A DNA stretch of 64,000 bases from Subtercola boreus. GTDB taxonomy: Bacteria > Actinomycetota > Actinomycetes > Actinomycetales > Microbacteriaceae. The stretch lies in contig NZ_NBXD01000014.1 in the NCBI RefSeq assembly GCF_003399645.1, forward strand, positions 1-64,000, given 5' to 3'. A model generated the notes under the pieces. The model was not told where the DNA came from. It made no database searches and was given only the letters and a program-made list of their open reading frames with translations. How positions within the stretch are numbered: the stretch's first letter is position 1; the number at the start of each line of letters is the position of its first letter. The position numbers and the translations under genes are program-made. This document shows, piece after piece, positions 3,221 to 30,551 of this stretch.

Positions 3221-4128
3221 CGACACCCCGCTATTTTCTCGTCGTGCTGCACACCGGGCGCCGGGATTCCGTCGACGCGGCGATGCAGGTCTGCGACCAG
3301 CTGGCGGCATCGGGCGTCACGGCGGTGCTGTCGCCGAGCGACCTGGCCGACATCTCCGACCGGCTGACCGACCCGGCGCTCGTGGGTGTTCTCGGCGAAG
3401 GCGTGCAGATCAGCGAGCTCGAGCTCGTGATCGTGCTGGGCGGCGACGGCACCATCCTGCGCGCCGCGGAGATCGTGCGCGGCTGCAAGGTGCCGCTGCT
3501 CGGCGTCAACCTCGGCCACGTCGGTTTTCTGGCCGAGAGCGAGCGCGAAGACCTGAAGGCATCGGTTTCGAGGGTTCTCGACGGTGACTACATCGTCGAG
3601 GAACGCATGACGCTCGACGTGGTCGTGACGCATGCCTCCGAGGTGGTCTACTCCGGCTGGGCCCTGAACGAGGCGACCGTCGAGAAGGCCAGCCGGGAGC
3701 GGATGATCGAGGTCGTGATCGAGGTCGACGGCCGGCCGCTCTCGACCTTCGGCTGCGACGGTGTCGTGATGGCGACGCCCACGGGCTCCACGGCGTACGC
3801 ATTCTCGGCCGGCGGCCCCATCGTGTGGCCGAGTCTCGACGCGCTGCTCTTCGTGCCCCTGAGCCCGCATGCGCTGTTCTCCCGCGCGCTGGTCATCGGC
3901 CCCGACTCGGTGCTGGCGGTCGAGATGCTCGAGCGCACGCCGGGTGCGGGGGTGCTCTGGTGCGACGGGCGACGCGGGTTCGACCTGCCGAACGGGTCGC
4001 GGGTGGAGTCACGGCGCTCCGAGGTGCCGGTGCGGCTCGCCCGGTTGACGCACGGGCCGTTCTCCGACCGGTTGGTTCGCAAGTTCGCGCTGCCGGTCGA
4101 CGGCTGGCGGGGGCCGGTGATCCGGTGA
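3217..4128 (+). CDS. nadK: NAD kinase
   Basis: A 303-residue ATP-NAD kinase that makes NADP+. The diagnostic GGDGTILRAAE lies near residues 75-85. NEATVEK and TPTGSTAYAFSAGGPIV form the rest of the active site. The longer open frame begins at 3175, but GTG 3217 is chosen because it overlaps the tlyA stop as GTGA and has CAGGAG at 3201-3206. It is coupled to recN downstream by the same four-base overlap. The order tlyA-nadK-recN is conserved in actinobacteria. Confidence 0.94.
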   Translation: MTTPRYFLVVLHTGRRDSVDAAMQVCDQLAASGVTAVLSPSDLADISDRLTDPALVGVLGEGVQISELELVIVLGGDGTILRAAEIVRGCKVPLLGVNLGHVGFLAESEREDLKASVSRVLDGDYIVEERMTLDVVVTHASEVVYSGWALNEATVEKASRERMIEVVIEVDGRPLSTFGCDGVVMATPTGSTAYAFSAGGPIVWPSLDALLFVPLSPHALFSRALVIGPDSVLAVEMLERTPGAGVLWCDGRRGFDLPNGSRVESRRSEVPVRLARLTHGPFSDRLVRKFALPVDGWRGPVIR

Positions 4129-5864
4129 GCGGCCCCCGTTCCGGAGTGATCGACGAGATCACGATCCGCGACCTCGGGGTGATCGCCGAAGCGGTGCTGC
4201 CCCTCGGGCCGGGTTTCACAGCAGTGACCGGCGAGACCGGTGCCGGCAAGACGATGGTCGTGCAGGCGCTCGGGCTGCTGATGGGCCAGCGCGCCGTCGC
4301 GGGCCAGGTTCGGCTCGGCAGTGCCCAGAGTTGGGTGGAGGGTCGCTGGAGCGTTCGCGTCGACGGCGTCGTCGCCCAGCGGGTGCGTGACGCCGGCGGC
4401 GAGGTCGAGGAGTTCGAGCCCCGGGCCGCGCTCGGCGAGCTGATCCTTTCGCGCTCGGTCTCGGGCGAGGGCCGCAGCCGCGCCATTGTCGGTGGCCGCA
4501 GCGCCCCGGTCGGGGTGCTCGGCGAGCTCGGCGAGAGTCTTGTGGTGGTGCACGGGCAGTCAGACCAATTGCGCCTGAAGTCGTCGACCGAGCAGCGGCT
4601 CGCACTCGACCGGTTCGCCGGGCGGGCGTTCCGCGACCTGCTCGACTCCTACGAGAGTGCGTTCCACGCCTGGCAGGGCCTTCGTTCTGAGCTCGAGACG
4701 CTCGTCTCCCAGCGTGAGGCGCGCATCCGCGAGGCCGACGCCCTGCGCATCGCGGTGGCCGAGATCGACGCACTCGCGCCGATCGCCGGCGAGGAGGAGG
4801 CGCTGGCGGAACGGGCGAGCAGGCTCACCAACCTCGAAGACCTGCGGCTCGCGGCGGCGTCGGCCCGGGAGTCGGTCTCCTCCGATGAACTCGATGGGCG
4901 CGCCGACACGGTCGGTCTGCTCGACTCCGCCCTGCGGCAGCTCGAACGGGTTCAGGCGCACGACCCCGCCCTCGAGCCCATCGTCGAGTCGCTGACCAGC
5001 GCCTCGTTCCTCGTCGCCGAGATCTCCACCCAGCTCTCGAGCTACCTCGCCGAGCTCGACACCGACGGCGGCTCCGAACTCGACGAGGTGCAGGATCGAC
5101 GCGCGGCGCTGTCGGTGCTTGCCCGCAAATACGGGCCGACCCTCGACGAAGTCATCGACTACTTCGGGGCGGCCGGGCCGCGGCTGATCGAACTCGAGAA
5201 CGATTCCGATCGCATCGACGAATTGACGGATGCAACGGCCGACGCCCTCGCTCTGGCCGAGACCCTCGCCGCCAACGTGAGCGTGGCGCGGTCGGAGGCC
5301 GCGGGGCGACTGAGCGGATCGGTCTCCGACGAACTGGCGGCCCTGGCGATGGGCGGCTCCTCCCTCGTGGTGGAGGTCGTTTCGGGCATCGAGCTGACGA
5401 CCTCGGGGCGGGACGCTGTGCACTTCCTGCTGGCCTCGCACGCCGGCGCCGAGCCGCGGCCGCTCGGGCGGGGAGCCTCGGGCGGCGAACTTTCGCGCAT
5501 CATGCTCGCCATCGAGGTGGTGCTGGCCGCGACCGATCCGGTGCCGACCTTCGTGTTCGACGAGGTCGATGCGGGGGTGGGCGGGGCATCCGCCATCGAG
5601 ATCGGGCGGCGACTCGCCCGGCTGGCCGAACAATCCCAGGTCATCGTGGTGACCCATCTGGCGCAGGTGGCGGCGTTCGCCACGAACCATCTCTCGGTGG
5701 TGAAGGACTCCGAGGGGGCCGTCACCGAATCGAGCGTGCAGCAGCTCACCGGCGAGGCCCGGGTGGCCGAGATGGCCCGGCTGCTGTCGGGTCTTCCCGA
5801 CAGCGAGAGCGGGCTCGCTCACGCGCGCGAACTGATCGAACTGGCGAGCGAGTCGGGGGCGTGA
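4125..5864 (+). CDS. recN: DNA repair protein RecN
   Basis: A 579-residue SMC-like ATPase for double-strand break repair. The N-terminal head has Walker A GETGAGKT near residue 36. Two heptad-rich coiled-coil arms fill the middle (about 150-360). The C-terminal head has the ABC signature LGRGASGGELSRI and Walker B TFVFDEVDAGVGG, followed by the VTHLAQVAA switch His. GTG 4125 overlaps the nadK stop as GTGA. The open frame extends further upstream but only as a shadow of nadK. Length and motifs are normal for the family. Confidence 0.95.
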   Translation: MSGPRSGVIDEITIRDLGVIAEAVLPLGPGFTAVTGETGAGKTMVVQALGLLMGQRAVAGQVRLGSAQSWVEGRWSVRVDGVVAQRVRDAGGEVEEFEPRAALGELILSRSVSGEGRSRAIVGGRSAPVGVLGELGESLVVVHGQSDQLRLKSSTEQRLALDRFAGRAFRDLLDSYESAFHAWQGLRSELETLVSQREARIREADALRIAVAEIDALAPIAGEEEALAERASRLTNLEDLRLAAASARESVSSDELDGRADTVGLLDSALRQLERVQAHDPALEPIVESLTSASFLVAEISTQLSSYLAELDTDGGSELDEVQDRRAALSVLARKYGPTLDEVIDYFGAAGPRLIELENDSDRIDELTDATADALALAETLAANVSVARSEAAGRLSGSVSDELAALAMGGSSLVVEVVSGIELTTSGRDAVHFLLASHAGAEPRPLGRGASGGELSRIMLAIEVVLAATDPVPTFVFDEVDAGVGGASAIEIGRRLARLAEQSQVIVVTHLAQVAAFATNHLSVVKDSEGAVTESSVQQLTGEARVAEMARLLSGLPDSESGLAHARELIELASESGA

Positions 5865-5915
5865 CCGCTCGGCGAACGGCGGGGACGGGCATCCGTACTG
5901 TTAGAGTGGAACTCC

Positions 5916-7637
<1,722 letters not shown>

Positions 7638-16240: not shown

Positions 16241-16789
16241 GTGAGCCGAGTGACCACGCCGCCGCCACCCCTGCCGCCCCGGCCGCGACGCGAGGGCGCG
16301 CCCGGTGCCGGTGCCGGTACGTCGGGTGCTGGTGCGTGGGGTGCTGGTGCGTCACGCTCCGCGGTGCCCGCGACATCGGGCCGCGGGGGCGGCCCCGGTC
16401 TTGCCGCTCGCGCCGGGCGTTCGGGTGACGTCGCGAGCGTGCTTCCGCTGGCCCTCGGCGGCGCGGCGTTCGTGATCAGCCTGGTGTTGGCGTTCGTCGA
16501 GGGGGCGGATGCCCGGGCATCCGATCTGGGAATCGCGACGCTTCCCGTGATCGAGCCGCGCCTGTGGTGGGTGGCGCTTCTCGGATACCTGCTGACGCCG
16601 ATCGTGGTCATCGTCGCCTCGGGGCTGGACAGGCTCTGGCAGCGCGCGGGCCTGCGCGATCGCCGGTTCACACCGAGGCCGCTCTACAGCACGGTGCTCA
16701 CCTGGCTCGTGCGCGTGGGTTTCGTGCTGGCGCTCTGGCACATCGTCAACCTCGCCGCGGCGATCTCCGACTTCTGGAGCAACCGGTGA
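16241..16789 (+). CDS. Three-helix membrane protein, first gene of the tubulin-like operon
   Basis: A 182-residue protein. Residues 1-65 are Pro, Gly and Ala rich (TTPPPPLPPRPRREGAPGAG) and probably cytosolic and disordered. Three hydrophobic helices follow at about 66-90, 105-127 and 150-175, with positively charged connections (RLWQRAGLRDRRFTPRP). The GTG start has GACAGGGG just upstream, and the stop overlaps the next gene as TGATG. I recognise no family. Its close coupling to the VWA gene suggests it is part of the same membrane complex. Confidence 0.75.
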   Translation: MSRVTTPPPPLPPRPRREGAPGAGAGTSGAGAWGAGASRSAVPATSGRGGGPGLAARAGRSGDVASVLPLALGGAAFVISLVLAFVEGADARASDLGIATLPVIEPRLWWVALLGYLLTPIVVIVASGLDRLWQRAGLRDRRFTPRPLYSTVLTWLVRVGFVLALWHIVNLAAAISDFWSNR

Positions 16790-19503
16790 TGCGCCGGATG
16801 CTCGCGCTCGCGGTGAGCGTGGTGCTCGCGGTGGGTGGGGTGGCGACACTCACCGCTGCCGCGTCGCTGCCGAACGAGAGCACGGTCACGGCCACCCTCG
16901 CCGCCGCGGGTGACGCCGGCACGCTGGACGCCTCCGGCACGGCGGCCATCGACGACGTGCGCCGCTGCATCGCGTCGAACAAGCAGCTCAACGTCTTCTA
17001 CCTCATCGATGCCTCGGGCAGCCTCTTCAAAGATGTCGATCCGGTCAACGCGACCGACCCCGACTTCGTGCGCGCCGACATCCTCGGCAACAGCCTGACC
17101 CAGCTCGCCGGGCTCGGCAACGGCGTGCAGGTGAACTACAGCGCCGGATTCTTCGGTTCGAGCTACAAGACCGCCACGGGCTGGTCGTCGGTGACGCCGG
17201 AGACCGCAGCCGCGGCATCCGAATCGCTGAAACAGACCATCCGCACCCAGCCCTCGCTCGGTTTCACCGACTGGGGTGCGGGCATCGCGGGTGCCCAGGA
17301 TGCGCTGGCCACCCAGCACGCCGCCAACAACGGCTGCCAGATGATGGTGTGGCTCACGGATGGGGCGCTGAACATCCGCGACGATGCCGCCCAGAATGCG
17401 GCCGCGATCAACACCCTCTGCGGCAACGCCATCGACGGGTCGACCCAGCCCGCCGAGGGGCTCGGCACGTTCAACGCGCTTCGCCAGAGCGGGGTCGTCG
17501 TCGTGGGCGTGCTGCTCTCGGTGCACCCCGACGGCGGCGAAGCGGTGAACACCCAGTACATGCGGCCGCTCGTAGAGTCGTCGGGCGAGGTCGACGGCAC
17601 AGCTGTGACGTGCGGCCAGTCGCCGCCACCGAGTTCGTCGGTGAATGGAGCGCTCGTCGAAGCCAACGATCCGAGCCAGCTCGCCTCGGTGTTCGCGCAA
17701 CTCGGCGTGCTGATCAACGGCGGGTACCCGCATCCGTTCGACGCCGACGGCGGCTTCCAGGTCGACCCGGGGGTCGCGAGCTTCACGATCATCACGTCCG
17801 ACCCGAGCTGGACGCTCACGCCGCCCCAGGGCTCGGGGTTGGCTGCGGTGTCGGCTGCGAGCGTCGACCCATCGGTGGTCGTGACGTCGACGGGCGGGGC
17901 CATCCAGATCGACGTCGACGTGGCGAGTGCGGCCCAGCAGGGGCGATGGATGCTCGCCACACCGGGCGGCGGAGACCGCCAGCTCTTCTACTACAGCGGT
18001 CTCACCATCGTGCCCGGCACGGGCAACCAGCTCGTGGCGGGGCTCGCCGGCGCGGTCTCGGGGCAGGTCGCAACCACAACGGGGCGTGCCCTCGTCGCCA
18101 CCGACTACTCGTCGCTCACGGTGTCGGTGTCGAAACTTCCGGCCGACGGATCGGCGGCGCAGAAGATCGGCGATGCCGTCGTCTCTGCCGACGGCTCGTT
18201 CACCCTGCCCTACACCCCGGGCGCCGACGACGGAGGGGCGGTCGATCTGGTCTACTCGATCGATCCGCTGGCGACGGCGCTGAATCAGATCGCGCTCGCG
18301 GCAGTGAGTGCCTCGCAGACGGTGATCGTGACCGTTCCCGCGAACTACCCGACCGTCACTCCCTCTGCTCTCGTGCTCGGTGCGCTCGAGGGAGCCAAGG
18401 GCTCGGCGACCGGAACCCTGACACTGGCCGCGCCGGCGGACGGGTCGGCCGGCTCGGTGTGCTTCCCGTCGGGCGCGACGCCCACCGTGGTATCCGACCC
18501 GGCGAACCGGGTCGACACCTGGCAGTGGAGCAGCTCGGCTGAGCTCACCGGCGGCTGTGTGGCGCTTCTGCCCGGGCAGAGCGTGACGGTCGACCTTGCG
18601 GCGTCGAACCCGGTCGCGGCGAACAGCTCGGTGGCAGCCGCGCTGCCGGTCGCGCTGACGAGCGCCGCGGGCGAGAGCCTGCCGCAGACGATCGCGGTGA
18701 CGTTCGACACGACCCGCCCGGTCAACGCTGCGGCGTTCAACGTGGCTGTGCTGCTGCTCATTCTGCTCGGACTGCTGATCGCCCTCGTCGTGCTGTGGCT
18801 GATGAACTTCGTAACGTCCGGCATCGCCCACGGTCGACAGCTCCTGCGGGCGTCGTTCCCCGTGACGGTCGATGCCGAGAACGGTGTCGTCGGTGCTCGG
18901 GGGATAGACCTGATGGCGGCCACGCTCGACGACTTTCTCTACCAGCCGCAGCTCGGAACGGTGAAGACACTCACCGACCCGGAGCTCGGAACGCTCCGCA
19001 CGCACGCCCGGCTGTTCCAGACGCGCTACGAGATCCAGGCACCGGCCGGGATGCGCGTCTTCACGGTCGTCTCAGCGGGTTCGCGCCGGGTGGCCGTCGA
19101 GCAGGGCACGATCGCCCCGATGACCGACCAGCTCAACCGGCTGTGGGCGGTCGTCGTGCGCGACAACGATCTCCTGGCGGGGGAGCCGGGCAGCCCGATC
19201 GCCGGCCGGCTCGTGGTGTACAAGCGCAACGAGTCGAACCGCGCCGACCAGTTCACTGACCGGATGCTCGACGTGACCCGGGACCGCACGCTCTGGTCGC
19301 GCGTGGCGCGGGCGCGGGTGCTGCTGCTCGAAGAGCGCGGCAGAGGGCCGGCCGCGACCGCAGAGCGCGGCGCCGGGCCGGCCGCGACCGCGGAGCGCGG
19401 CGCCCCCGCACCCCCACCGGCACCCCGGGCATCCGGAACCGCCGCACCCCCGCCCGTCACACCTCGCCGCGACCCTCGCGACCCGCCGCCGCCCCGCCGC
19501 TGA
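16789..19503 (+). CDS. Secreted, membrane-anchored VWA-domain protein
   Basis: A 904-residue type-I membrane protein. Residues 1-25 are a signal peptide (MLALAVSVVLAVGGVATLTA). A von Willebrand factor A domain follows with the metal-site motif DASGS at 74-78, a later TDWGAGI and the WLTDGALN strand. The domain therefore probably binds a divalent ion and a ligand outside the cell. Beta-rich repeats fill about 300-640. A membrane helix (VAVLLLILLGLLIALVVLWL) lies near 650-673, leaving a cytosolic tail of about 230 residues that ends in a Pro-rich stretch. ATG 16789 overlaps the previous stop. The cytosolic tail is a plausible contact for the tubulin-like protein encoded next; that is inference. 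Confidence 0.85.
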   Translation: MRRMLALAVSVVLAVGGVATLTAAASLPNESTVTATLAAAGDAGTLDASGTAAIDDVRRCIASNKQLNVFYLIDASGSLFKDVDPVNATDPDFVRADILGNSLTQLAGLGNGVQVNYSAGFFGSSYKTATGWSSVTPETAAAASESLKQTIRTQPSLGFTDWGAGIAGAQDALATQHAANNGCQMMVWLTDGALNIRDDAAQNAAAINTLCGNAIDGSTQPAEGLGTFNALRQSGVVVVGVLLSVHPDGGEAVNTQYMRPLVESSGEVDGTAVTCGQSPPPSSSVNGALVEANDPSQLASVFAQLGVLINGGYPHPFDADGGFQVDPGVASFTIITSDPSWTLTPPQGSGLAAVSAASVDPSVVVTSTGGAIQIDVDVASAAQQGRWMLATPGGGDRQLFYYSGLTIVPGTGNQLVAGLAGAVSGQVATTTGRALVATDYSSLTVSVSKLPADGSAAQKIGDAVVSADGSFTLPYTPGADDGGAVDLVYSIDPLATALNQIALAAVSASQTVIVTVPANYPTVTPSALVLGALEGAKGSATGTLTLAAPADGSAGSVCFPSGATPTVVSDPANRVDTWQWSSSAELTGGCVALLPGQSVTVDLAASNPVAANSSVAAALPVALTSAAGESLPQTIAVTFDTTRPVNAAAFNVAVLLLILLGLLIALVVLWLMNFVTSGIAHGRQLLRASFPVTVDAENGVVGARGIDLMAATLDDFLYQPQLGTVKTLTDPELGTLRTHARLFQTRYEIQAPAGMRVFTVVSAGSRRVAVEQGTIAPMTDQLNRLWAVVVRDNDLLAGEPGSPIAGRLVVYKRNESNRADQFTDRMLDVTRDRTLWSRVARARVLLLEERGRGPAATAERGAGPAATAERGAPAPPPAPRASGTAAPPPVTPRRDPRDPPPPRR
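19345..19404 (+). repeat. 30-bp direct repeat, two copies, in the VWA tail
   Basis: Two adjacent 30-bp copies (19345-19374 and 19375-19404) differ at one base and encode GPAATAERGA twice. The length is a multiple of three, so copy-number change would keep the frame. It sits in the Pro/Ala-rich cytosolic end of the VWA protein. Confidence 0.8.
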
Positions 19504-19553
19504 CCCGGCGCTCCCCACTTCACCGACATCCCCCTCTCGTCAGGAGACAGACC

Positions 19554-22500
19554 ATGCTCAGACCGTTCCTCATCATCGGCGTCGGCGGCTCCGGCGGCAA
19601 GACCCTGCGCGGCCTCCGGCACGCCCTCGAGCTGCGCCTGCAGCAGGCCGGCTGGGACGGCGGCCTTCCCGCGGCCTGGCAGATGCTGCACTTCGACACG
19701 CCCATCGCGCAGGACGGCGCCGACTATCCCCAGCCGTTCATGCCGCCGCAGAACTACAAAGGACTCGTCGCCGGTGGGGGAGCGTACGAGAGCGTCTTCG
19801 GCGGCATCGTGCACGGCAAGAAGATCGCGTCGCAGGCGATGGACGACGTGCTGCGCCAGCTCCCCGACCCTAAGCGGGTGCCGGTGGATGTGACGAAGGG
19901 CGCCGGGCAGTTCCGTGCCGTTGGGCGCGCGGTTGCCCTCTCGAAGCTCTCCGACATCGCGAAGGCTGCGTCGGAGTCCATCAACACGATGAGCGACGCG
20001 AAGGCGCTCGGCCAGTTGCGCACCCTCGGCGACGTGCTGCGGGCGAAGAGCGAGGGCGGCGTCACGCCGAACCCGACGGTGATCGTGATCTCGTCGATCG
20101 CCGGCGGATCGGGCGCCGGCCAGTACATCGACGTGATCGAGGCCATAAAGGCGACCGCGAAGACGCAGCCCTGGGCGTATCAGTTCTTCAGCCTGCTCTT
20201 CGCCCCCGACGTCTTCGACCAGATCAAGGGCAGTGGCGGCATCCCGAGCAACGCACTTGCGACGGTCGCCGAGACGATGAACGGATTCTGGACGACGAAC
20301 CCGTCGGAGTCGACGATCGAGCTGTTCAAGAGCAAGGGTCTGACGCCGAGCTATGGTGGTGCGCGCGACAGGGTCGGCGGTGCCTACCCGTTCATCATCG
20401 GCCGGCAGAACTCGAAGATCTCGTTCGACAACCAGGGCGAGGTCTACTCGGCGCTCGCGACGAGCGTGGCCGCCTGGATGACCGACGACCGCGTGCAGGG
20501 CGACATCGACGAGTACGCGACCGGCAACTGGACGGCGAACGTCGGTGCGAACAAGTTGAGCGACGAGTCAAGACTGATGCGTCCGATCGACCAGTCGCCG
20601 CCGTTCTCGAGCCTCGGCTTCGGCCGGGTGACGCTCGGGCGTGAGAAGTTCCTCGACTATGCCGCCGAACGGTTCGCCCGCTCCTCCGTCGACCGCATGC
20701 TGTTCTGGCACGCCGAGAGCGACCCGCAGTTCACCGAGCGCACCCGCGAGGAGTGGATCGAGCTCAAGGCATCGTGGGCGCTGACCGGCTTCATCAGCGC
20801 GGCCCGGCTCGACGAAGAGACGGAGGAGCGCAACGACGTCATCGACGCCCTGCGCGATGCGCCCGCCCAGAAGACCCTGCAGCTCGAGTTCGAAAAGGAC
20901 GTTCTCGCCTCCGCCGGCGCCGAGTACTCGCTCGACAAGTCGGGCGGGCTCGACATCTCGGTCTGGCACGAGCGGCTGATGAGCGAGTACAACGACAAAG
21001 TGGAGCGGTTCCTCTCCCGCGACACGGCCAATCGCCAGGCGAAACTCGACGAATGGATCGCGTCGCAGCCCTCCCACATCGTTACCACCGTCGAGCAGGC
21101 CATCGGCGAGCACGGCCTGCCCGTCACCGTCGAGCTGCTGAACCGGGTCGGCCGCGTCGTGAAGAGCGCCTCGGAGACCCTGACTGCCGAGGCGGAGCTT
21201 CGCCGCAGCTGGATCCGGCAGCTGCCCGGCTACATCCACGAGGAGCTGAGCCGGTCGTCGAGCCAGAACTCGATCCGGCCCGACCAGGAGCCGGTCGACC
21301 TCGCGATCGGCCGTATCGGCCAGGCCTTCGAGTGGGAGTCTGAGGCGCGCCTGCGCGACAGCGCCTCGGCGCTGCTGCGGGAGCTGCGCCGCGACTTCCT
21401 CGATCCGCTGCGCGCCCACCTCGCCAGCAGCCTCGCCGCACTGCAGTCCCGCGTCTCGGAGCAGAACCACTCCGACGGCCGCGTCAACGAGTACGAGTTC
21501 TGGCCGCGCCAGGACGACCAGACCGTTCCGCGCAAGTACGCGCCGGCGCCGAACGAGCGCCTGCTCGTCGAGGTCGCCGAGTACGCCGGCGAGTTCGAAT
21601 CCCTGGTCTCCTCCGCAGCGAGCGGAGCATCGTTCGGCGACGCCATGCCCACGGTGATGAGCTCGATCCTGCTGGGTACGATCGGCGACGAGACGGTCAC
21701 CGATCCGAAGCAGCGCTGGCGACTCATCCAGAGCACCCGCTCGTGGAAGCCCGTGGTGACGGCCGACAAGACCCACGTCGTGTCGTCGCCCCAGCTGCCG
21801 CGGTTCACCTTCGCCGACCAGCCCGAGGTCTACGTCGACAGGGCGAGGGTGTGGATGCTGCGCCAGGGCACCGCGTTCCAGAGCTACATCACCGAAGACC
21901 TGCGTACCTACTTCGATGTGCAGCATGTCGACCCGGTCACGTTCAAGAACCGCCGCGACAAGTTCACCGAGCAGCTGCGCGCGGCGCTGGGATCGAGCGA
22001 ACCGCTCGTCAAGCTCAACCCCGCCCTGCTCTCCGAGGTTCACGGAAAGTCGGTCGGCGACGGCACCCGGCTGGTCTTCAGCTCGATTCCGTTCGAGGCC
22101 GGCACCGAGATGTACGAGGTCACCAAGCACGCCCTCGTCACGCAGGGCGTCTGGGACGACAGCGTCTCGAAGGGCTGGTTCCAGGATGCCCGGGTCGACG
22201 GTATCGAGATCTTCGCCATGTCGGGGTTCCCGTACCAGCCCTTCGTCATGGACTCCGTCATGGAGCCCATCGCCCGCGGCTGGCTGGCCGAGTCGAACAA
22301 CGTCAACAGCCGCGCTGCGTTCTGGAAGTGGAAGCGCTCGCGCCTGCTGATGGAGGCTGTGCCGGCCGACCCCGAGGTCGCCGAGTCGATCATCCGCGGC
22401 TGGTACGTGGCCAAGGCGCTCGGCCAGCTCGCCGTCGACACCAGCGACGACGCCCGTGGCCCCGCGCTCAGCGTGTGGGACGCCGAGCACCGCACGTTCG

Positions 22501-22967
22501 CCGACTTTCCGCACCCGCTGCTCTATCCCGGCATCGCCCCCTCGAACGACTACCCGGGTGTGGTGCTCGAGTCGCTCATCGTCGCGATGGCGCTCATCAG
22601 TTCGGAGGGGTCGCTTCGGCCGCTCCACGCGTACCACGCGCTGATGGAGCTGGGCGGGGCGCCGGGACAGCTGTCGCGTCCGCTCTCGACGTGGATCCGG
22701 TCGGGCGAGCTGGCCGGCGGCGCGCCGGAACCCGACGACGAGCGGGCGGGGGGCGCATCCGCGAGTCTGAGCGCACGCCAGGATGCGCTGCGGGCCTTCC
22801 TCGAGAGCGAGCTCGACGACTTCCGTGCCGAGATCGCGACGCAGGATGCCCGCACCAGCGTCTACAACTACCCGGTGAGCTGGGAGATCCGCAACGAGAT
22901 CATCCGCGTGCTGGGCGACCTGCGTGACGGTGTCGTCGAAATCAAGGCCGCGAAGTCAGGGATCTAG
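19554..22967 (+). CDS. Tubulin/FtsZ-like GTPase-domain protein (Tubulin_2 type)
   Basis: A 1137-residue protein whose N-terminus reads LIIGVGGSGGKTLRGLRHAL (residues 7-26), equivalent to the FtsZ/tubulin T1 loop. SSIAGGSGAGQYIDV near 180-195 matches the T4 glycine loop (GGGTGSG in FtsZ). These two phosphate-binding elements with correct spacing, plus a TP-rich strand between them, identify the tubulin-like fold. The remaining roughly 800 residues, including long helical and coiled regions (WIASQPSHIVTTVEQAIGEH), match nothing I recognise. No signal peptide or membrane helix is visible, so it is cytosolic. ATG 19554 has AGGAG at 19542-19546. Large tubulin-like proteins of unknown role exist in bacteria (Pfam Tubulin_2). 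Polymerisation and nucleotide use are inferred. Confidence 0.85.
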   Translation: MLRPFLIIGVGGSGGKTLRGLRHALELRLQQAGWDGGLPAAWQMLHFDTPIAQDGADYPQPFMPPQNYKGLVAGGGAYESVFGGIVHGKKIASQAMDDVLRQLPDPKRVPVDVTKGAGQFRAVGRAVALSKLSDIAKAASESINTMSDAKALGQLRTLGDVLRAKSEGGVTPNPTVIVISSIAGGSGAGQYIDVIEAIKATAKTQPWAYQFFSLLFAPDVFDQIKGSGGIPSNALATVAETMNGFWTTNPSESTIELFKSKGLTPSYGGARDRVGGAYPFIIGRQNSKISFDNQGEVYSALATSVAAWMTDDRVQGDIDEYATGNWTANVGANKLSDESRLMRPIDQSPPFSSLGFGRVTLGREKFLDYAAERFARSSVDRMLFWHAESDPQFTERTREEWIELKASWALTGFISAARLDEETEERNDVIDALRDAPAQKTLQLEFEKDVLASAGAEYSLDKSGGLDISVWHERLMSEYNDKVERFLSRDTANRQAKLDEWIASQPSHIVTTVEQAIGEHGLPVTVELLNRVGRVVKSASETLTAEAELRRSWIRQLPGYIHEELSRSSSQNSIRPDQEPVDLAIGRIGQAFEWESEARLRDSASALLRELRRDFLDPLRAHLASSLAALQSRVSEQNHSDGRVNEYEFWPRQDDQTVPRKYAPAPNERLLVEVAEYAGEFESLVSSAASGASFGDAMPTVMSSILLGTIGDETVTDPKQRWRLIQSTRSWKPVVTADKTHVVSSPQLPRFTFADQPEVYVDRARVWMLRQGTAFQSYITEDLRTYFDVQHVDPVTFKNRRDKFTEQLRAALGSSEPLVKLNPALLSEVHGKSVGDGTRLVFSSIPFEAGTEMYEVTKHALVTQGVWDDSVSKGWFQDARVDGIEIFAMSGFPYQPFVMDSVMEPIARGWLAESNNVNSRAAFWKWKRSRLLMEAVPADPEVAESIIRGWYVAKALGQLAVDTSDDARGPALSVWDAEHRTFADFPHPLLYPGIAPSNDYPGVVLESLIVAMALISSEGSLRPLHAYHALMELGGAPGQLSRPLSTWIRSGELAGGAPEPDDERAGGASASLSARQDALRAFLESELDDFRAEIATQDARTSVYNYPVSWEIRNEIIRVLGDLRDGVVEIKAAKSGI

Positions 22968-22969
22968 CC

Positions 22970-25900
22970 GTGGCGCGCGGAATGTGGCCGAACGGCGCGG
23001 TGAGCATCATCCTGTTGCCGAGCGGCGACCAGGGAGCCTCGCTCTTCGATCTCGCTCGCGAATGGGTGGGACTGTCGCTCGTGGCGCCGGCGCTCTGGGT
23101 GCGGCCCGAGCGGGTGAGCATGCTGCCCGACAGCCCACCGAGCATCCGGGCCTGGGTGATCGGTGTCGACAGCGATCGTGAGGTTCAGCAGATCGATGTC
23201 GACCTCTTCGAGGCCCTCGCGCGCGAATCGCTGTCGCTCGTCAGGCTCATCAAGGTGCGCTCAGCGTTGCCGAGCCGGGAACAGGATGATCTGCAGGACG
23301 CCATCGGTCAGACGGTGTCTGACTACATCACCCTCTCGCTGCCCTCGGTGAACCCCGAGTACTCGCACCTCAAGGCCCGCACCTCGCTGACGAAGGTGAG
23401 CCTGATCGCAGCGCCCACCGAGTTCCAGCTGCGCGAGCGGGTGGAGTGGGCCGACACCGACCAGGGCGTCACCCTCGTGGCGTCGCCCGAAGACCGGTCG
23501 AGCCCCTGGGCCGGCGATGCGTTCGTGCGCGATAACGCCCGGTTCGTGGGATTCACGCTGATGCACATCGCAACGGTCGGCGGGCTCTGGAACGGGGTGC
23601 CCACCGGGTCTCTCGACATCGTCGACTCGTCGTCCTCCGCGCAGCCGGTCTCCGGCGGAATCTGGATGCCCCGGGTCTTCGTCAACGCCGTGCTGACCGA
23701 CGGCCTCGCCCGACGTGTCGCGGCGCAGGTGCTCGAGTCGGCCGCCGATCCATCCTCTGCCCTCATCGACCCCTCGCGGGGCGTGCCCGCCGAGGGAACG
23801 GCGGCGATTCCGGATGAGCGGATCGATGACTACGTGGGCGCGATGGTCGAAGCAGCCTTCCAGCTCGACGACGCGAAACTCAGCTACCGGGCTCCCGTGC
23901 TGGAAGGCATCCGGGGGAAGGACAGCGTCGGGGTCTTCCGCCAGCTCGGGCTCTTCACAGCGTTCGCCGCGGAGAAGATCCTCTGGATGCCGTACTGGTT
24001 CGTCGCATTCTTTCGCGACGGGCTCGTGGCGGCGGTGCAACGGTTGTTCCAGGGGAACAGGGGCCGGCTCGAAGTGGTGGCCGGCGGCGGTTCGGCGACG
24101 GACGGCGGCGCCCTCTTCGGCCGCCGTGCGCCCCGCGTCGATTCCCGCGACCGGATGCTGTTGACCGCCCGATCGGCGTTGGTCGAGGCCGAGGCGACCG
24201 CACAGCAGTCGCTCAACACCCCCGCTGCGGCCAGTGCGCTGCGGTCGACACCTCGCCTCTGGACCGGCCTTCGCGAGCTGGTCTTCGGATCGCTCGACGG
24301 CAGCGCCGACCTCGAAGACCGCGGGTTCACGCCGATCGAAGACAAGACGCCGGTCTTCGGCCGCGTCAGTGACGTTCTGCCCGACGCGAACGACGTCTGG
24401 CACTTCCCGGGTGACGTTCTGCCCCCCGGATTCCCCGCGTCGATCGGGTCGCAGAACCTGCACGAGGCCTCCACCCTGCGCGAGAGGATCGGGTCGGCGA
24501 TACGTGACACGCGTCTCGAGGCAGAGGGTGTTCAGACGGCGTACGACGCGGCACAGTCCGAGTACGTGACCGCATCGGCGCGCTTCGAGGTATTGCAGAA
24601 GTACCTGCTCGCCCAGAACGCCATCAGCCTCGACGGCGAGGGGCGGCCGACTGTGCTGGTGCCCGGGCTGCCGAGCGGCGAAGCCGACCCGGCGGCGGCC
24701 GGTGCCGCTTCGGGGGCAGGATCGGCTGACGACTCGTTCGCATCCCTTCGCCCGTATCTCACTGAGTACCTTGCGCTGCCCGTGCGCCTCGAGACCCTCG
24801 AGCTGAGCGGAACGGAGTTCGGCGCCGACCTCGAGCGGCTCACCGCGCGGCTCGAGACCCATCGCACCGCCCTGGCCTCGTTCGAGACCTGGCTCAGCCA
24901 GCGCGAGCGGTCCTTTCTCTGGCGAACGCTCGCCCGCATGAACCGTACCCGCGACAGGGCGCGTTCCGACCTTTCGGGGTTCGAACGCCGCATCGTCGCC
25001 ACCGAGCTGCCCGAGGCCGGCACGCTGGTGCGCCTCCGGCAGAGCTTCCACGGGCGAATCGGACTCGCGGCCTTCGTGCTGTTGGTCATCGGCGCGCTGC
25101 TCGTGCTGTTGCCCCGCGCCGTGCAGCAGGTGCGCGACTGGCCCCCGTACCCGGCCGACTGGATGATCGTCACCGCACTCGTCGTGCTGGTGCTCCTCTT
25201 TCTTCTGGGCTATCTGGTGGCCTACTACCGCGGCTGGTCGGAGTTCGACCGAACCGTCGCCGAGACCCTCGACGAGTTGCACCAGCTGGGCCGCGCGACC
25301 ACGCAGGTGCGCAGCGAGCTGCACCGGCTGGCGAGCCTGCACGGCCAGTCGATGGACTGGCTCGAACTGCTCGCTGTCTCGCTCTACCGGCCGTGGGCGG
25401 TCAAGCCGTCGTGGCTCGACTCCGGGCTGACGTCACTCGACACGCTGGCGATGCCGTTCGCGATGCAGGTCGCGCAGGCCTACGAGGGCAGCTCCACCGA
25501 GTCGGTGCGCCTGCAGCATGCGGCGGCCCGCAGCCTGGTACGCACCGGATGGCGCGCCCGGGCCTTCGAGCAGATGCTGGCAGCGATCGGCACCCGCCTC
25601 GGCCTCTCGCCCGAACAACTTGGGCTCGACGCTCTCGACCACGACCTTCCGCACGCCTCGAACAACTCCCGTCGGATCGTGCGCGACAACATGACCGATG
25701 GGGTACTGCTCGAGACCGTGGCGCGCACCCACCTCGGCGAGCTCATCCAGGAGGTGCAGAGTGGTGCGCTCTACGAGTCCAAACCGCGGGTGCGCCGACT
25801 CGTCAGCGACCCCCTGGCGCGGCTGCAGTCCGATGCCTCAGGAATCGACACGAGTGTCGAAGACCTTGAGTGGAGCGGCTTCCTCACGGGCGCACTGGGG

Positions 25901-26317
25901 GAGGCGAGCGATCCCATCTCCCCCCTGAGCGCCCTCGGAATCGCGCCCTTCGAGGTGCAGGACGGACACCACATCGAACCGTCCACCTTCGTTCTCGCTC
26001 CGGCCCGCATCGCGTCGGGACTGGCGGCGCGGGAGGGGCGCCGTGTGCACATCACGTCGTACAGCGACGCTGTGGCACGCCCTCTCGACATCGTGCTGCG
26101 CATCGACCTGGCGGGCCCCCTGCCTCTCAGCGCCGTGCACCTGTGGGGAGAAGGCAAGCGGCGGCATCCGCAGCTCGTCGACGCCCTCGCCGCAGCCGCG
26201 CCCGCGGGCAACCCAGCGGCGCGCGCCGATGCGGCCCGCTGCCCCCAGTGCGGCAAGACCTCGTGCCCTGCCGCAGACCCCGCGAGCGGTGCCGCCTGCG
26301 TGAACTCGGGGATCTGA
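22970..26317 (+). CDS. Large two-helix membrane protein of unknown family, last gene of the operon
   Basis: A 1115-residue protein starting 2 nt after the tubulin-like gene, hence translationally coupled. Residues 1-600 are mixed alpha/beta without a known motif. A helical region with coiled-coil character (about 505-690) leads into two adjacent membrane helices near 695-720 and 735-758 (ALVVLVLLFLLGYLVAYY). The C-terminus carries a small Cys cluster (RCPQCGKTSCPAADP, then ACVNSG) that could bind zinc. I do not recognise the family. Context suggests a membrane scaffold for the tubulin-like and VWA proteins. Confidence 0.8.
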   Translation: MARGMWPNGAVSIILLPSGDQGASLFDLAREWVGLSLVAPALWVRPERVSMLPDSPPSIRAWVIGVDSDREVQQIDVDLFEALARESLSLVRLIKVRSALPSREQDDLQDAIGQTVSDYITLSLPSVNPEYSHLKARTSLTKVSLIAAPTEFQLRERVEWADTDQGVTLVASPEDRSSPWAGDAFVRDNARFVGFTLMHIATVGGLWNGVPTGSLDIVDSSSSAQPVSGGIWMPRVFVNAVLTDGLARRVAAQVLESAADPSSALIDPSRGVPAEGTAAIPDERIDDYVGAMVEAAFQLDDAKLSYRAPVLEGIRGKDSVGVFRQLGLFTAFAAEKILWMPYWFVAFFRDGLVAAVQRLFQGNRGRLEVVAGGGSATDGGALFGRRAPRVDSRDRMLLTARSALVEAEATAQQSLNTPAAASALRSTPRLWTGLRELVFGSLDGSADLEDRGFTPIEDKTPVFGRVSDVLPDANDVWHFPGDVLPPGFPASIGSQNLHEASTLRERIGSAIRDTRLEAEGVQTAYDAAQSEYVTASARFEVLQKYLLAQNAISLDGEGRPTVLVPGLPSGEADPAAAGAASGAGSADDSFASLRPYLTEYLALPVRLETLELSGTEFGADLERLTARLETHRTALASFETWLSQRERSFLWRTLARMNRTRDRARSDLSGFERRIVATELPEAGTLVRLRQSFHGRIGLAAFVLLVIGALLVLLPRAVQQVRDWPPYPADWMIVTALVVLVLLFLLGYLVAYYRGWSEFDRTVAETLDELHQLGRATTQVRSELHRLASLHGQSMDWLELLAVSLYRPWAVKPSWLDSGLTSLDTLAMPFAMQVAQAYEGSSTESVRLQHAAARSLVRTGWRARAFEQMLAAIGTRLGLSPEQLGLDALDHDLPHASNNSRRIVRDNMTDGVLLETVARTHLGELIQEVQSGALYESKPRVRRLVSDPLARLQSDASGIDTSVEDLEWSGFLTGALGEASDPISPLSALGIAPFEVQDGHHIEPSTFVLAPARIASGLAAREGRRVHITSYSDAVARPLDIVLRIDLAGPLPLSAVHLWGEGKRRHPQLVDALAAAAPAGNPAARADAARCPQCGKTSCPAADPASGAACVNSGI

Positions 26318-27052: not shown

Positions 27053-27126
27053 CGGGCTGTAGCGCAGCTTGGTAGCGCACCTGACTGGGGGTCAGGGGGT
27101 CGCAGGTTCAAATCCTGTCAGCCCGA
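27053..27126 (+). tRNA. tRNA-Pro, anticodon GGG
   Basis: It folds as a full cloverleaf: acceptor CGGGCTG with CAGCCCG, D arm GCGC/GCGC, anticodon stem CCTGA/TCAGG with loop CTGGGGG giving anticodon GGG, and T arm GCAGG-TTCAAAT-CCTGT. The discriminator base is A and CCA is not encoded. It is 74 nt long. Confidence 0.95.
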
Positions 27127-27132
27127 CACAAA

Positions 27133-27616: not shown

Positions 27617-28852
27617 GTGAAACCAGATAGTCCCGTCACCAGCTCTCTTCCCATCCCGCCCGGGGCAGCAGAGAACAGGGTGTGGAAGCCGAGGGACACC
27701 GGCTACCATTCTCGCAACGAGCTCCGGCGGCAGACCGGCGAATACAGCTCCTCGGTCACGCCTGAGATCGTCTCCTGGAACCCCCGTCTCTCGAGCGCTC
27801 TCAGCGCTGACGTGGAGGACGCCGCGAGGGCGCTCGTGGATTTCGACTCCTACGCGTTGCGCGTTCTCGGGGTGGACAGCCCGGCAGTCGGCCCGATGTC
27901 CGCGATCCTGCTCCGCACAGAGAGCGCCTCCAGTTCGCAGATCGAGAACCTGACGACCAGCGCACGACAGATCGCGCTTGCCGAGATCGAGGAGACGGTG
28001 AAACCCAACGCGTTGACCGTCATCGGTAATGTCCGAGCAATGGAGGCCGCACTCGCGCTCTCAGAAAGCATCGATAGGGCGGCGATACTGGCGATGCATC
28101 GAGAACTCCTCAGCCGACAGCGGGGATGGGAGGAGCACGCGGGGGTGTTCCGGTCGGAACTGGTCTGGATCGGAAAAAGCAGAGCCGGGCCCCTGGGTGC
28201 CGATTTTGTTGCTCCTCAGCATGAGCGGGTCGGTGCGGCGATCGACGACCTCATCGCTTTTGCCGACCGGGACGATCTTCCCGTTCTGGTGCAGGTCGCC
28301 GTAGCGCACGCACAGTTCGAGTCCGTGCATCCCTTCGTCGACGGCAACGGCCGCACCGGCCGCGCCCTCGCGCAAGCGATGCTGAAGAACAAGGGGCTCG
28401 TCTCCCACACCACCGTGCCGATTTCAGCGGGCCTCCTGACGCAGACGGAGGTCTACTTCGGTGCTCTGGAGAGATTTCGGGCCGGGGACGCGGCGCCCAT
28501 CGTCGAGAGCTTCGCGTGGGCGTCGCGGTACGCCGCTGCGACCGGCCGCGGGCTCATCGACCGGCTCTCGGAGCAATTGGAGTCATCGCGATCGCACCTG
28601 CGGGGCATTCGATCGGATGCAGCCGCCTGGGGTGTTCTGCCGAGGCTCATCGCCCAGCCGATGTTGAACACGCAGTATCTTCGGTCGGCGCTCGGTATGA
28701 GCACGATGACGGCCCAGCGGGCGCTCGAGGTGCTCACGGACCGCGGCGTGCTGAAGGAGACGACGGGGCTCAGACGCAATCGCGTATGGCAGCACACGGG
28801 CATCCTGGGTGTGCTCGACCAGTACGCCGACGACATCAGGCGCGGACGATAG
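27617..28852 (+). CDS. Fic-family AMP transferase with C-terminal winged helix
   Basis: A 411-residue protein. An N-terminal Fic_N domain is followed by the Fic core with the catalytic loop HPFVDGNGRTGRALAQ near residues 238-253, which matches HPFxxGNGRxxR completely. SSQIEN near residue 102 fits the inhibitory S/TxxxE(G/N) motif of class II Fic proteins, so activity is probably autoinhibited. The C-terminal 90 residues form a winged helix (LGMSTMTAQRALEVLTDRGVL) expected to bind DNA. GTG 27617 lies 8 nt from the palindrome with no clear ribosome site, so the message may be leaderless. Fic enzymes AMPylate target proteins. The target here is unknown. Confidence 0.9.
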   Translation: MKPDSPVTSSLPIPPGAAENRVWKPRDTGYHSRNELRRQTGEYSSSVTPEIVSWNPRLSSALSADVEDAARALVDFDSYALRVLGVDSPAVGPMSAILLRTESASSSQIENLTTSARQIALAEIEETVKPNALTVIGNVRAMEAALALSESIDRAAILAMHRELLSRQRGWEEHAGVFRSELVWIGKSRAGPLGADFVAPQHERVGAAIDDLIAFADRDDLPVLVQVAVAHAQFESVHPFVDGNGRTGRALAQAMLKNKGLVSHTTVPISAGLLTQTEVYFGALERFRAGDAAPIVESFAWASRYAAATGRGLIDRLSEQLESSRSHLRGIRSDAAAWGVLPRLIAQPMLNTQYLRSALGMSTMTAQRALEVLTDRGVLKETTGLRRNRVWQHTGILGVLDQYADDIRRGR

Positions 28853-28976: not shown

Positions 28977-30551
28977 GTGAGTACTTCATCGGGGATGCCT
29001 GCGGGCTGGTATCCGGATTCGCAGATCGACGGCGGCGAGCGGTACTGGAACGGCGTCTCGTGGAGCACCCGGCGGATGGCGGCTCCGCCAGCGGCGGCTC
29101 CCGCAGTACCTCCGCCGGTCGCGCCACGACGGCCGGCCCCGCCACGACGGCCAGCCTCGCCGCGACGGCCAGCCTCGAAACGACGACGGGTCTCGCAACG
29201 ACGACCGGTCGCGCCTCGGCGGGGCGTTCCAGTGGTGACCATGGTCGTCGGTGCTGTGGTGCTGCTCGTCCTGGCGCTCTCGCTCGTCAGCGGCGTCGGC
29301 GGGTTTCTGATCACGCTCGGCCTCATCGCGCTGCTGACGGGGCTGTACGTCGCCGTCACGAAGCGCCGGAGTTGGGCGCGGCTGCCCGCATCCCGGATGA
29401 TCGGGGCCGGCGTCGTGGTCGGCGCGCTCATCATCGCGGGGGTCGGTGTCGGGGTTTCGCCGAAGCGGGTTCCGGATGTCGCACCCGCCGCCCTCGCGGC
29501 GACTGGGGCGGTGGCAGACCCTACTTCTGGCGATCCGACCCCGGCTGTGCCGACGGCCGCGCCCACGACTGCTTCGGACGCGGAGCTGGCCGCCGCTCAA
29601 ATGGATCCGGAGACCGCCACGACCCCGCCCGAAGGCTCGAGCGTGGTCGCTGCCGACACCAGCGTCACGACGGGCACGGCCCTCGCGGTGCTCGCGACGT
29701 TGGCGGTGAAGGGCCGGGCGCCCAAGACGGGGTACGACCGGGTCGGGCAGTTCGGGATCGCCTGGCTCGACGTCGATCGGAACGGCTGCGACACTCGCAA
29801 CGACATCCTCGCCCGTGACCTGGCGGATGTGACGAAGTCGGGCCCGTGCAAAGTGCTGACGGGTGTCCTGACCGACCGGTACACGGGAAAGACCATCGAC
29901 TTCGTGCGCGGCAACACGACCTCGACGCTGGTGCAGATCGACCACGTCGTCGCACTGTCCGATGCTTGGCAGAAGGGCGCACAGCAGCTCACGGCGGCGC
30001 AGCGGGTGAGCTTCGCGAACGATCCGCTCAATCTGTGGGCGGTCGACGGAGCGACCAACGAGGCGAAGAGTGACGGGGATGCCGCCACCTGGCTGCCGCC
30101 CAGCACAGGGATTCGGTGTGAGTACGCTGCCCGCCAGATCTCAGTGAAGGCGACCTACGCGCTCTGGGTGACGCAGGCGGAGCACGACGCGCTCGCGGGC
30201 ATCCTCTCGGCGTGCCCCGACCAGGCGGCGGTGTCGTCGGCGTTCACGCCCGCTGCCGCGGTTACCGTGCAGGCCGCGCCTCCGGCCGCGCCGGCACCTG
30301 CCCCCGTCGCCGCGCCGGTTCCCGCACCCGCACCGGTGCCTGCGCCCGTCGCGCCCGTGCCGCAACCGGCCCCCGCTGAACCCGCCGCACCTGCCGCACC
30401 TGCACCGGCCCCCGTCGAACCGGCCCCGGCAGACGTCTATTACGCGAACTGCGCGGCAGCGCGAGCAGCGGGGGCCGCGCCTCTGTATCGCGGAGATCCC
30501 GGCTACCGGCCGAAGCTCGACGGCGACAGCGACGGCATCGCCTGCGAGTAG
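28977..30551 (+). CDS. Membrane protein with DUF2510, DUF1524 (HNH-like) and Excalibur domains
   Basis: A 524-residue protein. DUF2510 at residues 3-32 (MPAGWYPDSQIDGGERYW) is followed by a basic Pro/Arg linker and hydrophobic segments near 86-128 and 141-160. The DUF1524 domain (about 240-410) has QIDHVVALSDAW near 320, then NDPLNLWAVDG and NEAKSD, an HNH-like metal and catalytic arrangement. A Pro/Ala linker of about 70 residues leads to a C-terminal Excalibur calcium-binding motif (DGDSDGIACE). It is probably a surface-exposed nuclease-like protein. Function on extracellular DNA is inferred. GTG 28977 ends a GGGGGAAC stretch. It converges on the next gene with only 4 bp between. Confidence 0.85.
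   Translation: MSTSSGMPAGWYPDSQIDGGERYWNGVSWSTRRMAAPPAAAPAVPPPVAPRRPAPPRRPASPRRPASKRRRVSQRRPVAPRRGVPVVTMVVGAVVLLVLALSLVSGVGGFLITLGLIALLTGLYVAVTKRRSWARLPASRMIGAGVVVGALIIAGVGVGVSPKRVPDVAPAALAATGAVADPTSGDPTPAVPTAAPTTASDAELAAAQMDPETATTPPEGSSVVAADTSVTTGTALAVLATLAVKGRAPKTGYDRVGQFGIAWLDVDRNGCDTRNDILARDLADVTKSGPCKVLTGVLTDRYTGKTIDFVRGNTTSTLVQIDHVVALSDAWQKGAQQLTAAQRVSFANDPLNLWAVDGATNEAKSDGDAATWLPPSTGIRCEYAARQISVKATYALWVTQAEHDALAGILSACPDQAAVSSAFTPAAAVTVQAAPPAAPAPAPVAAPVPAPAPVPAPVAPVPQPAPAEPAAPAAPAPAPVEPAPADVYYANCAAARAAGAAPLYRGDPGYRPKLDGDSDGIACE

Follow-up and report, generated by a model that had tools for sequence, protein, structure and literature searches.

Genes of the Tubulin_2/FtsZl1 family lying beside vWA genes were published in 2010 with predicted functions (Makarova and Koonin 2010; PMC2875224), and GAP1-N2 systems containing a tubulin and a vWA protein were published in 2020 among conflict systems, again with predicted functions (Kaur et al. 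2020; PMC7159879). A related four-gene block lies at positions 16241-26317, on the + strand, of a 64,000-nucleotide stretch of Subtercola boreus DNA (positions 1 to 64,000 of contig NZ_NBXD01000014.1; hereafter the window). The Tubulin_2 family and its vWA partnership are already known, and the block is a variant without GAP1-N2. New here are a complete, split tubulin fold predicted for the Tubulin_2 protein, a possible pseudo-tubulin partner, and a putative "tail code" of short motifs. A preliminary description of the locus was unaware of any function for such a gene set; the pairing was in fact already in print with predicted functions, and the available text of both papers describes no functional test of it. 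No experimental study of FtsZl1/Tubulin_2 function was found in the open-licence literature, judged from titles and abstract openings among the matches listed.

The operons of Makarova and Koonin share with the block the same GTPase family, a vWA partner that often has a signal peptide, and lineage-specific membrane proteins (PMC2875224). The available text of that paper mentions an actinobacterial clade, and a reviewer there names a C. glutamicum vWA protein. P1 and P4, the first and fourth proteins of the present block, are not described in that text and may be among the unnamed families of its supplement; the HNH satellite gene and the tail motif discussed below are likewise unmentioned. 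It finds no likeness to FtsZ in the T6-H7 or C-terminal regions, whereas the model of the Tubulin_2 protein (P0003) obtained here contains a full split tubulin fold.

Common to the block and the GAP1-N2 systems are an actinobacterial tubulin protein with a helical C-terminal part, a membrane-bound vWA protein, and extracellular or membrane themes (PMC7159879); the tubulin gene and the membrane vWA protein are both present in the window. P4 and the docking tails are undescribed in the available text. GAP1-N2 itself (PF20013) gave no match in the window genome or nine others (10 of the 11 genomes tested), whereas in G579, a genome of the same class with P1-, VWA-, tubulin- and P4-like genes, it lies on the contig of the tubulin match, some 7 kb away. 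The control genome of Corynebacterium glutamicum gave matches to both Tubulin_2 and GAP1-N2. It seems, then, that the core is shared and the attachments are lineage-specific. The block and its satellite comprise the following genes:

16241..16789, + strand: P1, small membrane protein, 182 aa (open reading frame [ORF] and translation, hydropathy, family alignment)
16789..19503, + strand: VWA surface protein, 904 aa (ORF and translation, MIDAS alignment, hydropathy)
19554..22967, + strand: Tubulin_2/FtsZl1 protein (P0003), 1137 aa (Pfam match, alignment, structure model)
22970..26317, + strand: P4, 1115 aa (ORF and translation, alignment, hydropathy, structure model)
28977..30551, + strand: HNH (GmrSD_C) nuclease-like protein, membrane-anchored (PF07510 match, neighbourhood, tail and helices)

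Conservation of the four-gene block

The ORFs were confirmed as to coordinates, spacing and strand, reproducing the tight operon, with overlaps or gaps of 2-50 nt, reported in the preliminary description. One base is shared between the VWA start codon (ATG at 16789) and the P1 stop, the tubulin-like gene begins 50 nt past the VWA stop, and P4 begins 2 nt past the tubulin-like gene.

A single scan yielded 45 loci; setting aside those with short flanks left 40 for P1, 42 for VWA and 41 for P4. VWA was matched in all 42, P1 in 36 of 40 and P4 in 38 of 41, every match lying on the strand of the tubulin gene, so that the co-occurrence survey proposed in the preliminary description came out positive for each partner. 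All loci lacking a P1 or P4 match are from Acidimicrobiia, and in three of these (L055, L059, L063) a long ORF without a match occupies the P4 position.

Tubulin_2 is present in 11 of 199 genomes of the family and P4 in 10, nine with strong matches and one with a weak match (G065, E 2.7e-5, internal stop). The nine strong-P4 genomes all fall among the 11 Tubulin_2 genomes (hypergeometric 4.9e-14, not corrected for relatedness), so the pairing is not due to chance. The two Tubulin_2 genomes without P4 represent another operon subtype, seen within the same family at L013 (G179) and L014 (G009) and flanked by different genes; the G009 locus also has an HNH match on the opposite strand, about 3 kb upstream. 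A whole-phylum search with the P4 alignment returned two strong and two weak genomes of 396, and it understates the spread of P4 because the distant homologues of G579 and G560 were missed. Viral carriage was rejected, as no relative is encoded at any of the 65 pattern matches in viral contigs. Plasmids gave two distant Rhodococcus matches at 24% identity; on a 1.39-Mb Rhodococcus plasmid (L156, 16001-19210), a Tubulin_2 gene has a VWA gene upstream, and the P1 and P4 profiles were unmatched on the plasmid.

In the block-free genome G007, of the same genus, 142 bp stand where the window has 10.3 kb, flanked on one side by a gene we take from its sequence to be der and on the other by the gene preceding tRNA-Pro. 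G090, also of this genus, has two other ORFs at the block site. In the window, tRNA-Pro lies at 27053-27127, just downstream of the block. The site of the block differs among same-genus genomes and is perhaps an insertion hotspot.

The Tubulin_2 protein and its membrane partners

P0003 matches PF13809 (Tubulin_2) over residues 6-379 with an E-value of 3.5e-37 and 128.9 bits (curated cut-off 27), and all 35 aligned sequences match this model at E <= 1. The T1 (GVGGSGGKT) and T4 (GGSGAGQ) loops that had been noticed in this protein are both present, and their glycines (G9, G11, G12, G14 and G15; G184, G185, G187 and G189) are invariant among the 35 aligned sequences. The structure model is confident (mean predicted local distance difference test, pLDDT, 89.4), and structural alignment places both N- and C-terminal tubulin-fold domains in it. 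These results support a complete predicted tubulin fold, interrupted by a long helical insertion, and in the comparison of predicted folds suggested earlier they favour tubulin. P0003 has no FtsZ_C match in a Pfam search, and a separate FtsZ_C gene is found in the window genome at G000:C14:144462; P0003 is not the cell-division FtsZ of this genome, which is a separate gene. Its nearest relatives are on Subtercola contigs and are 84-90% identical.

By Kyte-Doolittle hydropathy only, the VWA protein shows a signal-like helix (4-22) and a transmembrane (TM) helix (652-670), which leaves a 234-residue cytosolic tail that ends PPPVTPRRDPRDPPPPRR. The signal peptide, extracellular metal site (DASGS) and cytosolic tail of about 230 residues given in the preliminary description are all recovered, and the residues of the metal ion-dependent adhesion site (MIDAS; DxSxS plus T and D: D74, S76, S78, T160, D191) are complete and invariant in 20 sequences, as are six cysteines in the same alignment. 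The window protein itself matches no Pfam VWA model; VWA_2 is matched by 15 of the 20 aligned sequences, and no FNIII model is among the 12 Pfam families listed for them. Among solved structures, the VWA profile matches best to a surface protein of TRAP type, in its A-domain region (E 2.1e-4).

P1 has three hydrophobic helices (67-85, 111-129, 157-175) and an N-tail rich in proline and arginine (TTPPPPLPPRPRR); no known domain was found above cut-off in Pfam or NCBIfam, or below E 0.3 in PADLOC. P4 has two such helices (697-715, 732-750), again by Kyte-Doolittle. Hydropathy thus upholds the earlier view of both as membrane proteins, and the label "two-helix genes" fits P4 and fails for P1.

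In P4, an alpha/beta N-terminal part is followed by long helices, among them a two-TM hairpin, and then by a C-terminal part. Nothing was found above cut-off in Pfam and NCBIfam or below E 0.3 in PADLOC, and no Pfam family is shared by more than 3 of 24 P4 sequences. It lacks the GTP loops, and its model matches the tubulin fold weakly, which hints that P4 may possibly be a G-loop-less split tubulin fold whose own helical insertion bears the TM hairpin. Profile comparison did not support P4 as a sequence relative of the tubulin protein. Genes following tubulin in other Tubulin_2 subtypes were also negative (L013, L106, L097); the L102 gene after tubulin gave a positive profile match. The product of that gene (G479, 3590-6838, minus strand) is homologous to P4 (hhalign E 2.5e-14), and its C-terminal part is formed by a Trypsin_2 peptidase. 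An alpha-pore toxin was rejected as well, the weak Foldseek rows (E 0.016, root-mean-square deviation 31 A) reflecting long-helix resemblance.

BtubA/BtubB and eukaryotic alpha/beta tubulin, whose structures came up in the structural alignments, work as pairs, and a possible pair of two tubulin-fold subunits is where P0003 and P4 would resemble them; P4 differs in its missing GTP loops, its TM hairpin and its weak fold match. P0003 and P4 might accordingly be read as a split-tubulin pair, a GTPase subunit with a membrane-anchored, G-loop-less pseudo-tubulin whose insertion holds the TM hairpin. Such a pair could co-polymerise into a sheet beneath the membrane and recruit VWA receptors and lineage-specific surface enzymes, with short, co-evolving tail motifs as the code. 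This full proposal is conceivable and, in our judgement, doubtful.

The HNH satellite and shared tail motifs

The HNH protein of the window has a Pro/Arg-rich N-tail (VPPPVAPRRPAPPRRPASPRRP), TM helices and an HNH (GmrSD_C) domain matching PF07510. Its gene is about 2.7 kb from the block; homologues directly adjoin the block in many relatives and lie within 0.6 kb of it at 17 of 45 loci. Twelve of these are downstream in line. The other five are upstream, four of them divergent (L044, L048, L049, L065) and L064 in line. The family is common, occurring in 126 of 199 genomes, with one to three PF07510 matches per genome in the 16 genomes checked. G045, G116 and G171 have no copy other than the one linked to the block, and one copy in each of G106 and G006 lies by the block; the listed copies of G046, G094, G153, G179, G579, G479 and G560 are far off or on other contigs. 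In two Acidimicrobiia, a TM-anchored Trypsin_2-GmrSD_C protein directly follows the P4-like ORF beside the VWA-tubulin block (L055, 16807-18636; L059, 11588-13429).

Within a locus, the VWA C-tail and the HNH N-tail have strings in common: PPPPPPRR in Occultella (L049, L065), PPPPRP in Rathayibacter, PPPRPG in L030 and L058, and PPPPRS in Georgenia (L044). In Demequina (L064), DFLG/DFLD was seen by eye in both tails, the longest common string found by script being VAAV, probably by chance. The motif occurs in 23 of 38 VWA ends (a set that counts the window protein and some fragments of frame-split copies), in 13 of 20 HNH tails (the 110 residues ahead of the first TM helix in the open frame) and in 4 of 39 P1 tails. 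Two kinds of gene were excluded from the controls: those with GC content lower at third than at first codon positions (GC3 < GC1), and those that share a frame with an operon or HNH gene. In the remaining controls the motif occurs in 2 of 134 other TM genes and 4 of 355 other genes. Of the two TM genes with the motif, one (L039, 17501-17920) itself adjoins the HNH gene; it encodes a small membrane protein with a PPPPPRR N-tail and has a relative in L036.

A strict form of the motif is present in four of five block-linked HNH copies, three of the four from one genus, versus 0 of 25 others (Fisher 1.8e-4). This comparison covers the best 30 HNH loci; G143, one of the 25, has no detectable tail, and the block-linked G006 copy (935849), which falls outside the set, has no motif in its first 40 residues. 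The HNH homologue of block-free G007 begins at its TM helix.

In G579 the corresponding motif is [DN]PFG, with 13 pattern matches in 31.5 kb versus 0.89 expected, counted in the sequences of the loci themselves; the pattern was picked after inspection, so the p-value is descriptive. Six membrane proteins there have [DNS]PFG ahead of the first TM helix, and the VWA tail holds five copies. This sharing between VWA and satellite tails suggests docking on the same scaffold. Weighing against it, covariation of the P1 tail is not significant, several HNH proteins have no tail, and the Rhodococcus plasmid gives partial support, with DPFG in the VWA tail, DPW/NPFL in one neighbour and nothing clear in the others. 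At window 27617-28852, a product that is presumably Fic-like carries HPFVDGNGRTGR, spotted by eye.

A possible sub-membrane scaffold and its alternatives

The gene block, the predicted GTPase-subunit fold, the HNH adjacency and the motif sharing are computational results; docking, polymerisation, signal direction, ligand and output are inferred. The reading we tentatively adopt as the most economical, at a little short of an even chance, pictures a tubulin-like layer of P0003 and P4 on the inner face of the membrane, regulated by GTP, which would cluster VWA receptors and tagged surface enzymes. P0003 would be the GTP-binding subunit, its tubulin fold carrying a long inserted helical arm; P4 a membrane-anchored partner, probably of degenerate tubulin fold, whose helical insertion may hold the two-helix anchor, as its weak fold match hints; and P1 a small membrane subunit. 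The VWA protein may sense an outside ligand or the state of the wall via its MIDAS. Its tail and those of neighbouring satellite membrane proteins (the HNH nuclease in Micrococcales) have one short motif in common, which is PPPPRP-like here and [DN]PFG in a different lineage. They would dock on a single receptor within the Tubulin_2/P4 layer, and ligand binding would change layer assembly so that surface enzymes are clustered or released. The preliminary description had proposed that the operon links an outside ligand to a cytosolic filament; the tail-motif data could give this idea a concrete form, in which VWA and neighbouring surface proteins dock on the cytosolic part.

Alternative readings differ from the scaffold mainly in output. 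A biological-conflict (defence) system, in which VWA senses envelope invasion, the tubulin layer, driven by GTP, sets a threshold and the HNH nuclease and trypsin-like protease serve as effectors, appears rather unlikely. Kaur et al. place GAP1-N2 systems with tubulin and vWA among conflict systems (PMC7159879), and at a relative locus GAP1-N2 is found close to the block. The patchy presence (11/199 genomes), the empty site in a same-genus genome, the Trypsin_2 domain fused to a P4 homologue and the Trypsin_2-GmrSD_C proteins after P4-like ORFs also fit defence. However, none of the four proteins has a PADLOC match below E 0.3, GAP1-N2 is absent from the window genome, and the nuclease domain would be outside the cell if, as hydropathy suggests, the N-tail is inside.

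Membrane remodelling, or a vesicle machine, in which FtsZl1 polymerises on and bends the membrane while VWA and the membrane proteins are structural (Makarova and Koonin 2010), is unlikely. It agrees with the shared protein family and vWA association, with P1, VWA and P4 being membrane proteins by hydropathy, and with the complete predicted tubulin fold, which was out of that paper's reach; yet no remodelling component was identified, and the tail motif common to the satellite enzyme is left unexplained. A mechanical link or adhesion device, proposed in the preliminary description, in which VWA binds a surface ligand and its tail couples to a cytosolic filament, is improbable: the complete MIDAS, the six invariant cysteines and the TRAP-type match fit it, but VWA likeness says nothing of the ligand and no motor-like component was seen.

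For the scaffold reading, the tail code, if real, would point to the client proteins, to the candidate binding peptide and to the receptor subunit. A membrane-anchored pseudo-tubulin, if true, would give tubulin polymers a means of membrane attachment that is, to our knowledge, new.
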